A stretch of DNA of 64,000 nucleotides, taken from NCBI GenBank assembly GCA_009840165.1, contig VXOG01000114.1, positions 1 to 64,000 of the forward strand, written 5' to 3'. Position numbers and translations under genes: made by a program. Shown piece by piece: positions 1,497 to 57,132 of the stretch (the first letter of the stretch is position 1; each line of letters opens with the position of its first letter). This DNA is from Chloroflexota bacterium (GTDB taxonomy: Bacteria > Chloroflexota > Dehalococcoidia > Lucifugimonadales > UBA3495). The notes below the pieces were generated by a model. That model ran no database searches and had not been told where the DNA came from. It was given only the letters and a program-made list of their open reading frames with translations.

Positions 1497-1555
1497 GTGA
1501 GATGCCACCGAAGCGCATCCCCTTGCTAAACAACCTGATAGGAGAATCAACCCGA

Positions 1556-1870
1556 ATGACTATGACCCGCTCAGAGTTCGGCAAAGTTGAAGTGGACATC
1601 ATCTATTGCGTGCCTTGAGGCTATCACGGCCTCGCCACGTGGCTGGCGACCGAATTCTGGCGTTCCCAGAACGCCGGCGATATTGCCATCAAGCTCACCC
1701 CCGCCGACAAGGGCCGCCTGGAAATTTACCTGGACGGTTCCAAGATCTTCGACCGCTTCGACGAGGAAGGCGACGAATACCCGGGCTACACCAAGGTCAA
1801 CGAGTTGAAAATGGTCATCGCCGAGCGCGTCTTTGACGTTGAAGACGAAATGATGGCGGCGCGCGGCTGA
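1556..1870 (+). CDS. SelW/Rdx-family selenoprotein (in-frame UGA = Sec21)
   Basis: Reading from ATG 1556 through the TGA at 1616-1618 gives a single 104-residue frame that ends at TGA 1868-1870. The N-terminal strand VDIIYCVP is followed by UGA and then GYHGLATWLA, so the motif is C-x-x-U as in the Rdx redox family (SelW, SelT, SelH and bacterial SelW-like proteins). The later strand RLEIYLDGSKIFDR matches the family's second half. A hairpin that fits bacterial SECIS rules starts just after the UGA. AGGAG lies upstream at 1540-1544. The stop overlaps the next ATG (TGATG). An ordinary gene caller misses this gene because it breaks at the UGA. Predicted role: thioredoxin-like thiol/selenol redox protein. 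Confidence 0.88.
1616..1652 (+). promoter_or_regulatory. candidate bacterial SECIS hairpin
   Basis: Directly after the in-frame UGA, TCGCCA (1632-1637) pairs perfectly with TGGCGA (1644-1649). The stem extends by CGG (1627-1629) with CCG (1650-1652) across a two-base CC bulge. The apical loop CGTGGC (1638-1643) has G as its second base and begins 19 bases after the UGA. Published bacterial SECIS rules ask for an apical loop about 16-37 bases from the UGA with a G in the first two loop positions, and this hairpin meets both. The fold was done by eye. Confidence 0.65.
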
Positions 1871-2571
1871 TGGCTAACAACGAACACGTTGAACTCGTGC
1901 GCGCCGGCGGGGATGCCCTGGCATCGTGGCGCGCCGACAACCCCGACCAGCAGCTGGACCTCCGAGTCGCCGATCTCAGTGGCATGGATCTGGCCGGCAT
2001 CGACCTGCGCGGCGCCGACCTGCGGGGCGCGAACCTGGCCGACGCCCGGCTCACCAGGGCCAATCTTTCCCGTTGCGACCTGCGGGCGGCGGACTTCACC
2101 GGCGCAGATCTGTACGGCGCGACGTTGGCCTCCGCGCAGATGGCCATGACCATCCTGCGCAACGTCAATCTCTTCTGGGCCGACCTGAAGCAGTCCGACA
2201 TGCAGGAATGTATCCTGCAAATGTCTCGCCTGAACCGCGCGTCGTTCCTGAACACCAACCTCACCGCCGCCGATTGCAGCCAGACCACGGCCATCGAGGT
2301 GGACCTGCGTTCCGCCAACCTGACCAACTCCGACTGGCAGGGGGCGAACCTGAATGGCGCAGATGTGAGCCGCGCGGTGATGCAGGGAGCCAACTTCACC
2401 AATGCCAAGATCCGCGACTCCATGTGGATTATGACCGATATGCGAGGGGCTAACTTCGACCGCGCCAGCCTGCACCGCTGCGACATGACCATGAGCAAGT
2501 GGGACGACACCACGAACTTCCCGCCCGGTTTCGATCCGAACCACATCGAGAATCGAGTGGACGATTACTAG
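1870..2571 (+). CDS. pentapeptide-repeat protein
   Basis: A 233-residue protein dominated by A(D/N)LxG-type five-residue repeats, for example DLRGADLRGANL near residue 50 and GANLNGADVS near residue 160. Such repeats fold into a right-handed quadrilateral beta-helix. The start codon overlaps the stop of the selenoprotein (TGATG), so the two are translationally coupled. Some pentapeptide-repeat proteins bind gyrase and give quinolone tolerance, but most have no known function and nothing here singles out a target. Confidence 0.85.
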   Translation: MANNEHVELVRAGGDALASWRADNPDQQLDLRVADLSGMDLAGIDLRGADLRGANLADARLTRANLSRCDLRAADFTGADLYGATLASAQMAMTILRNVNLFWADLKQSDMQECILQMSRLNRASFLNTNLTAADCSQTTAIEVDLRSANLTNSDWQGANLNGADVSRAVMQGANFTNAKIRDSMWIMTDMRGANFDRASLHRCDMTMSKWDDTTNFPPGFDPNHIENRVDDY

Positions 2572-40954: not shown

Positions 40955-41230
40955 TCATTTCGCGGTAATGCCGATTTTGCGGAGGTACTCCGACAGGTGT
41001 TCCTGCGACCGTTTCCCTTTAGCGTAGTTGCAGTGGGCACAAAGGAGCTGTAGGTTTTCCAAGCGGTCTGCGCCACCGCTGGCTACGGGGACAATGTGGT
41101 CCACTTGCAGGTTGCGGAATTCAAAGGCAAAGCCGCAGCCACTGCACTTTCCTCGCTGCTGCCTGAAGAGGGTACGCCTGTCCTGGAGGCGGGTGGGGTC
41201 GTCTTTCGCCTCTCGGATTTTGAATGCCAT
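40955..41230 (-). CDS. HNH endonuclease
   Basis: A 91-residue HNH nuclease with two zinc-binding C-x-x-C pairs (CSGCGFAFEF and CAHCNYAKG) around LQVDHIVPVASGGADRLENLQ. The sequence is very like the C-terminal HNH domain of the methyltransferase encoded at 41811-43037, so one arose from the other or both from a shared source. It begins one base after a 49-residue ORF (TGACATG). Confidence 0.82.
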   Translation of the reverse strand: MAFKIREAKDDPTRLQDRRTLFRQQRGKCSGCGFAFEFRNLQVDHIVPVASGGADRLENLQLLCAHCNYAKGKRSQEHLSEYLRKIGITAK

Positions 41231-56700: not shown

Positions 56701-57132
56701 TCAGTTCTCCGTGGCGTCGTCGGAGGCATCGGGCGCTGCGAAGCCGGCGGCGATTTCGAGCCGGCGGATGCGGGCGGCCCATTCCTGGTCGCGCTCGGCA
56801 CGGACACGCTCAAGCTCGGCCTCGGCGCGTTCGGCGCGTTGGCGTTCCGACTCGGCTTGCTGCTTGAACTGTTCGGCTTGTTGCTTGAACTGCTCGGATT
56901 CCTGCCGCGCTTGTGCAGCATTCTCTTCGGCTTTTTGGACGCGGTCGTCGCGCAGAATTCCCAACACCAATGCGAAACCTCCTATTCCGTTTCCGCTGAG
57001 GGCGACAGCCAACTGGACGACGCCGGCCGCCGTGCTGTATTGCAGAGCCAACCCAGCCAGCGCTGTTGTAACCAACAACGCGGTGGTATAGACGGCGAAA
57101 GCCATTATATACAATCGGTTTCTCGAATTCAT
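56701..57132 (-). CDS. membrane protein with coiled-coil tail
   Basis: A 143-residue protein with two hydrophobic helices (IMAFAVYTTALLVTTALAGLAL and GNGIGGFALVLGIL) and then a 65-residue coiled coil with a direct repeat, EQFKQQA twice in succession. It is similar in design to the protein of 24033-24728. It lies directly upstream of hyuA; co-transcription is likely but no functional link is evident. Confidence 0.6.
   Translation of the reverse strand: MNSRNRLYIMAFAVYTTALLVTTALAGLALQYSTAAGVVQLAVALSGNGIGGFALVLGILRDDRVQKAEENAAQARQESEQFKQQAEQFKQQAESERQRAERAEAELERVRAERDQEWAARIRRLEIAAGFAAPDASDDATEN

Follow-up and report, generated by a model that had tools for sequence, protein, structure and literature searches.

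Among the selenoprotein families in the Global Ocean Sampling data the SelW-like one was the largest, with 427 selenocysteine (Sec) and 56 cysteine (Cys) forms, and SelW-like selenoproteins are common in marine bacteria, according to the available passages of that study (PMC2398784). In Sec-containing organisms, SelW-like proteins are reported to have very few or no Cys homologues (PMC1794560, as excerpted). The bacterial SECIS (bSECIS) hairpin is defined, in the available part of PMC13188914, by criteria that include a loop lying 16-37 nt after the UGA and a G among the first two loop bases. Within the open-licence literature we found no paper linking SAR202 with a selenoprotein, nor one linking pentapeptide repeats with selenoprotein W, neither result being proof of absence; the passages seen from the open-licence literature on selenocysteine in SAR202/Chloroflexi do not describe SelW in SAR202.

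The stretch of DNA analysed here (64,000 nucleotides, hereafter the window) very probably belongs to a SAR202-type bacterium. We hold with great confidence, from comparative sequence evidence, that positions 1556-1870 of its forward strand form a functional SelW-like selenoprotein gene, in which Sec would be inserted at UGA 1616 by means of a hairpin at 1632-1649, giving a predicted CxxU oxidoreductase. The gene is a further example of a well-known family and is not new in kind; it would, however, be truncated or missed by ordinary gene calling, because the standard code splits its frame into two pieces, and it provides a concrete, conserved case of selenium use in SAR202-type bacteria.

Reading frame, family and conservation of the UGA

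Translated with TGA as Sec, the frame runs from ATG 1556 to a TGA stop at 1868-1870 and encodes 104 residues including Sec; its 104 codons are interrupted by a single internal TGA (1616-1618) in the context YCVP-UGA-GYHG, exactly as the initial annotation had read it. A likely ribosome-binding site, AGGAGA (1540-1545, forward strand), lies 10 nt 5′ of the ATG. Past the internal TGA, the first in-frame ATG, GTG or TTG is TTG 1805 and the next ATG is at 1811, both near the end of the gene, which bears out the earlier claim that the second half has no usable start codon of its own. The CxxU motif (1607-1618, forward strand) comprises Cys18 (TGC 1607-1609), Val, Pro and Sec21 (TGA 1616-1618), as placed by the translation and by the Sec column of the homologues.

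The read-through protein, with C standing for Sec, matches Pfam Rdx (PF10262) at 42.8 bits (cut-off 22.6), and narrowly misses NCBIfam TIGR02174 (SelT/SelW/SelH) at 33.5 bits (cut-off 34.2); its membership in the SelW-like/Rdx group thus rests on the Pfam match and on profile matches to solved structures. A profile of 14 homologues matches the SelW-related chains 2p0g, 2obk, 2fa8 and others (best 2p0g, E 2.6e-9), and SelW itself (2npb) at only E 0.1; in the 14-row alignment Cys18 is invariant, as is position 21 with Sec taken as C. The initial assignment to an Rdx/SelW-type protein is supported by these matches. On the thioredoxin-like fold expected of the group, the sequence-level observation is the profile match to solved SelW-type chains.

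We searched 60 genomes, including the window's own; 51 gave a SelW-like match, and an in-frame TGA is present in 104 of the 105 matches listed. Within the window's family an orthologue occurs in 35 of 36 genomes (the sole exception, G020, is 66% complete) and the TGA is kept in every one of the 35, our own gene included; the other 34 are 47-95% identical to the window's protein. Of 294 genomes sampled across the class, 107 gave matches scoring E 0.001 or better, and many of the weaker matches have no stop. From 110 loci read (30 orthologue loci and 80 hand-chosen from the hits) we obtained 114 homologue rows, whose proportions depend on this choice of loci: the Sec column holds TGA in 97, Cys in 16 (TGC 10, TGT 6) and Asp (GAT) in one. 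Close relatives with neither Sec nor Cys at this position had been named at the outset as evidence against the reading; one or other residue is found in 113 of the 114 rows, the exception being the Asp, in a tandem copy. The orthologues' final stop is TAG in 16, TAA in 11 and TGA in 8 (n=35, our own gene using TGA). The internal codon is therefore held as UGA, in contrast to the terminal stop, which varies.

A tree of 92 of the 114 rows (91 columns) has many open forks and long branches, and no direction of change was inferred from it; the window's orthologues, 24 of whose 35 rows are in the tree, form one clade with support of 100/100, and the Sec and Cys states require at least 4 changes. 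In three genomes a Sec copy adjoins a Cys copy (L080 in G259, L100 in G230 and L110 in G287), and at L129 (G055) a TGA copy stands beside a second copy with Asp (GAT), from which the partner Cys has also been lost.

The base before the UGA (codon 1613-1615 in the window) is T in 59/59 copies retrieved from the window's family, spread over the codons CCT, GCT, TCT, AGT and GAT; these copies comprise 35 orthologues, 21 members of a second paralogue group and three of a third, groups that we assigned and that are single clades on the tree. Elsewhere this base is T in 16, C in 18 and G in 4 of the other 38 Sec copies, and C in 5, T in 5, A in 5 and G in 1 of the Cys forms.

A codon-score scan of the window for further read-through genes gave three candidates, all on the reverse strand, at 40955, 56701 and 11246; it missed the SelW gene itself, and is therefore insensitive. 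At 40955 the candidate resolves into a pair of adjacent ordinary genes, one of HNH type and a further small one (named by eye), and that at 56701 appears, in the stretch inspected, to be a normal stop with the next gene following it.

The hairpin downstream of the UGA

Just after the UGA lies a candidate bacterial SECIS-type hairpin (1632-1649, forward strand), so classed from the alignment, shuffles, folds and the bSECIS criteria as given in the available text of PMC13188914. Its stem TCGCCA (1632-1637) pairs exactly with TGGCGA (1644-1649) around the loop CGUGGC (1638-1643), which starts 19 nt after the UGA and has G as its second base; the 22-nt hairpin has a folding energy of -8.6 kcal/mol. 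The stem, loop G and spacing are as first described; the minimum-energy fold of 1600-1670 and that of 1616-1665 contain a different hairpin, with unremarkable z-scores (-0.83 and -1.15). This competing hairpin, predicted when the 50 nt starting at the UGA are folded, includes some of the UGA itself, and the six-pair stem emerges on folding shorter stretches. As there is no significant folding signal in the single sequence, our case for the hairpin rests on the alignment and on a synonymous-shuffle test.

The RNAalifold consensus of 30 orthologues is exactly the six pairs 1632-1637/1644-1649, and the covariation score of 0.130 (0.051 in shuffled alignments) was reached by none of 500 shuffles, with the caveat that related sequences can beat shuffles. 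Of the six stem pairs one changes on both sides, two change on one side and three never vary; pair 18-33, which links the third positions of two codons, occurs as CG, AU, UG, GC and UA among the orthologues, and 167 of the 500 shuffles had as many pairs changing on both sides (one) or more. Codon choice within the hairpin hardly varies: Ala +6 is always GCC (35/35) and Thr +7 always ACG (26/26), whereas Ala +23 and Thr +27, outside the hairpin, use all four codons. Mean synonymous difference is 0.18 at +5 to +10 and 0.49 elsewhere (Mann-Whitney P 0.0018).

In the synonymous-shuffle test the protein was held fixed and codons were redrawn from the orthologues' own usage in 300 trials, scoring sequences with at least five of the pairs and a GU loop. 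All 32 distinct orthologue sequences have this hairpin, against 4.7 expected and a maximum of 10 in 300 shuffles, as do all 16 of the second paralogue group (0.5 expected); the Cys forms (1/16, 1.3 expected) and the other, more distant Sec homologues (5/37, 3.8 expected) show no excess of it. When the loop condition is dropped and only five or more pairs are asked for, the orthologues score 32 against 19.1 expected, so the protein sequence alone favours the stem. If every bSECIS-like hairpin with at least six pairs is counted, the other Sec homologues score 14/37 against 7.0 expected (maximum 13) and the Cys forms 4/16 against 2.5; with five or more pairs the figures are 19 against 14.3 (n=37) and 10/16 against 6.5, the Cys forms thus being somewhat above expectation. 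By these comparisons between groups the exact hairpin is a feature of two paralogue groups within the window's family, and the distant Sec forms seem to use other hairpins.

The own genome carries a second paralogue (L109, contig C66) with an in-frame TGA, the motif YCVPUQHH, an identical GU loop and all but one of the six hairpin pairs; its minimum-energy fold lacks the SECIS hairpin (z +1.01). Rfam gave nothing at gathering score in the window, where ARAGORN likewise found no tRNA.

Selenocysteine machinery and alternative readings

Absence of selB, selC or selD from the genome was the other finding that, according to the initial annotation, would speak against a selenoprotein; selA, selB, selC and selD were all found. 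The assembly (3.76 Mb in 115 contigs, with an estimated completeness of 95.99 and contamination of 5.73%) contains selA (552 bits), selB (363 bits over 2-580 of 581), selD (374 bits) and, by ARAGORN, a tRNA-Sec (selC) with anticodon UCA, all on contigs other than that of the SelW gene, in a bin with that contamination of 5.73%. The selD (L007, contig C7) is itself interrupted by an in-frame TGA, within a CAGU motif, and the hairpin after this TGA is not significant against shuffles (z -0.87).

Among 80 genomes tested for the machinery, 49 have a TGA-bearing match (counted by the presence of an in-frame TGA, whatever its column), and selA is present at E 1e-50 or better in 44 of these; the remaining five (G059, G178, G211, G246 and G287) all have selB at E 1e-75 or better, and four of them have tRNA-Sec. 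In G051, G071, G101 and G199 none of selA, selB and tRNA-Sec was found, and none of these four genomes has a TGA-bearing match; G071 and G101 carry Cys forms. Eleven genomes gave only Cys forms among the matches read (G071, G101, G210, G238, G270, G301, G328, G341, G183, G170 and G278): eight have selA, selB and tRNA-Sec, two (G071 and G101) have none of them, and G183 lacks only selB. Cys forms thus go only partly with loss of the Sec machinery.

From the conserved anatomy of the gene and the machinery in the genome we infer Sec insertion at UGA 1616, directed by SelB and the hairpin. SelB, with Sec-tRNA(UCA), would bind the hairpin at 1632-1649, and Sec would be inserted at UGA 1616 in place of termination. 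In the resulting 104-residue Rdx-family product, Cys18 and Sec21 would make up the redox pair of the CxxU motif, and the protein would probably act as a thiol/selenol oxidoreductase on its partners, judging by its family.

A broken gene, with the TGA arising by nonsense mutation or sequencing error and the second half left as a remnant, would likewise be split in two by the standard code, and a single genome taken alone would look no different. We give this explanation next to no credence, as the same TGA stands in 35/35 orthologues, 34 of them differing from the window's protein to the extent given above, and the hairpin and the constraint on its codons also tell against it. An in-frame TGA by itself names no residue, and UGA might instead be reassigned to an ordinary amino acid, or be a leaky stop read without selenocysteine. 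TGA, however, serves as the final stop in eight of the 35 orthologues, our own gene among them, the residue in rows without TGA is Cys in 16 of 17, and the genome has the machinery for Sec; we consider this second possibility very unlikely. The broken gene, sequencing error and reassignment are rejected on the strength of conservation, the swapping of terminal stop codons and the Cys homologues.

It could also be argued that the UGA is mainly a regulated terminator, with either a short peptide or the adjoining pentapeptide-repeat gene being what matters, since the gene overlaps the start of that neighbour by one base and read-through could affect its expression. Such a role as the main function of the UGA is scarcely credible to us: beyond the UGA the protein sequence is conserved, synonymous changes occur outside the hairpin, and the overlap is absent in 30/35 loci. 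A selenoprotein with Sec at UGA 1616 remains our reading of the locus.

The pentapeptide-repeat neighbour and comparison with known systems

Directly 3′ of the SelW gene is a pentapeptide-repeat protein gene (1870-2571, forward strand; Pfam PF00805, 125.3 bits), whose ATG shares base 1870 with the SelW stop. In all 35 orthologue loci the next gene downstream, on the same strand, encodes a pentapeptide-repeat protein, with identities as low as about 50%. The one-base overlap is found in five of the 35; in eight further same-genus loci the genes are 0 to 5 nt apart (with some starts extrapolated from the alignment), and the remaining 22 have gaps of 8 to 206 nt. Gene order is conserved throughout; the translational coupling stated in the initial annotation is weaker than claimed there, being extrapolated from an overlap present in five loci. 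Judging from gene order, the two genes are probably in the same transcript, and a functional linkage between them may be suggested. That the selenoprotein and the pentapeptide-repeat protein of this family are a dedicated functional pair, the latter physically partnering the former or serving as its redox client, is a tentative proposal that we think is rather unlikely to be right; if it were true, the pair would be a handle on the role of bacterial SelW, and the conserved pairing is in any case a testable lead on SelW function in bacteria.

Upstream, the nearer of the MaoC-like genes is present in 26 of 30 loci (L013-L042). Between the MaoC-like genes and SelW lies a PaREP1-family gene (1137-1496; 34.5 bits, cut-off 24.4), which occurs at 8 of the 14 loci from the same genus (one of them, L022, being truncated upstream) and at none of the 16 from other genera (L027-L042).

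Set against the bSECIS model, as far as the available text of PMC13188914 gives it, the hairpin agrees in its 6-nt loop, 6 bp, early loop G, 19-nt spacing and folding energy of -8.6 kcal/mol over 22 nt, and differs in that the window's own sequence, folded from the UGA, prefers a competing hairpin. Rdx proteins that have Cys, from the same order and class, belong to the same family, and the motif of their largest group is YCVPCGY, but Cys replaces Sec and the window's hairpin is not in excess in them. As in the ocean samples, going by the available passages of PMC2398784, Sec forms outnumber Cys forms among the homologues here. With bacterial SelW-like selenoproteins (PF10262) in general the gene shares the Rdx match, the CxxU motif and a UGA with a bSECIS-type hairpin just after it; it departs from them in scoring just below the TIGR02174 cut-off and in having a pentapeptide-repeat gene as its conserved neighbour.
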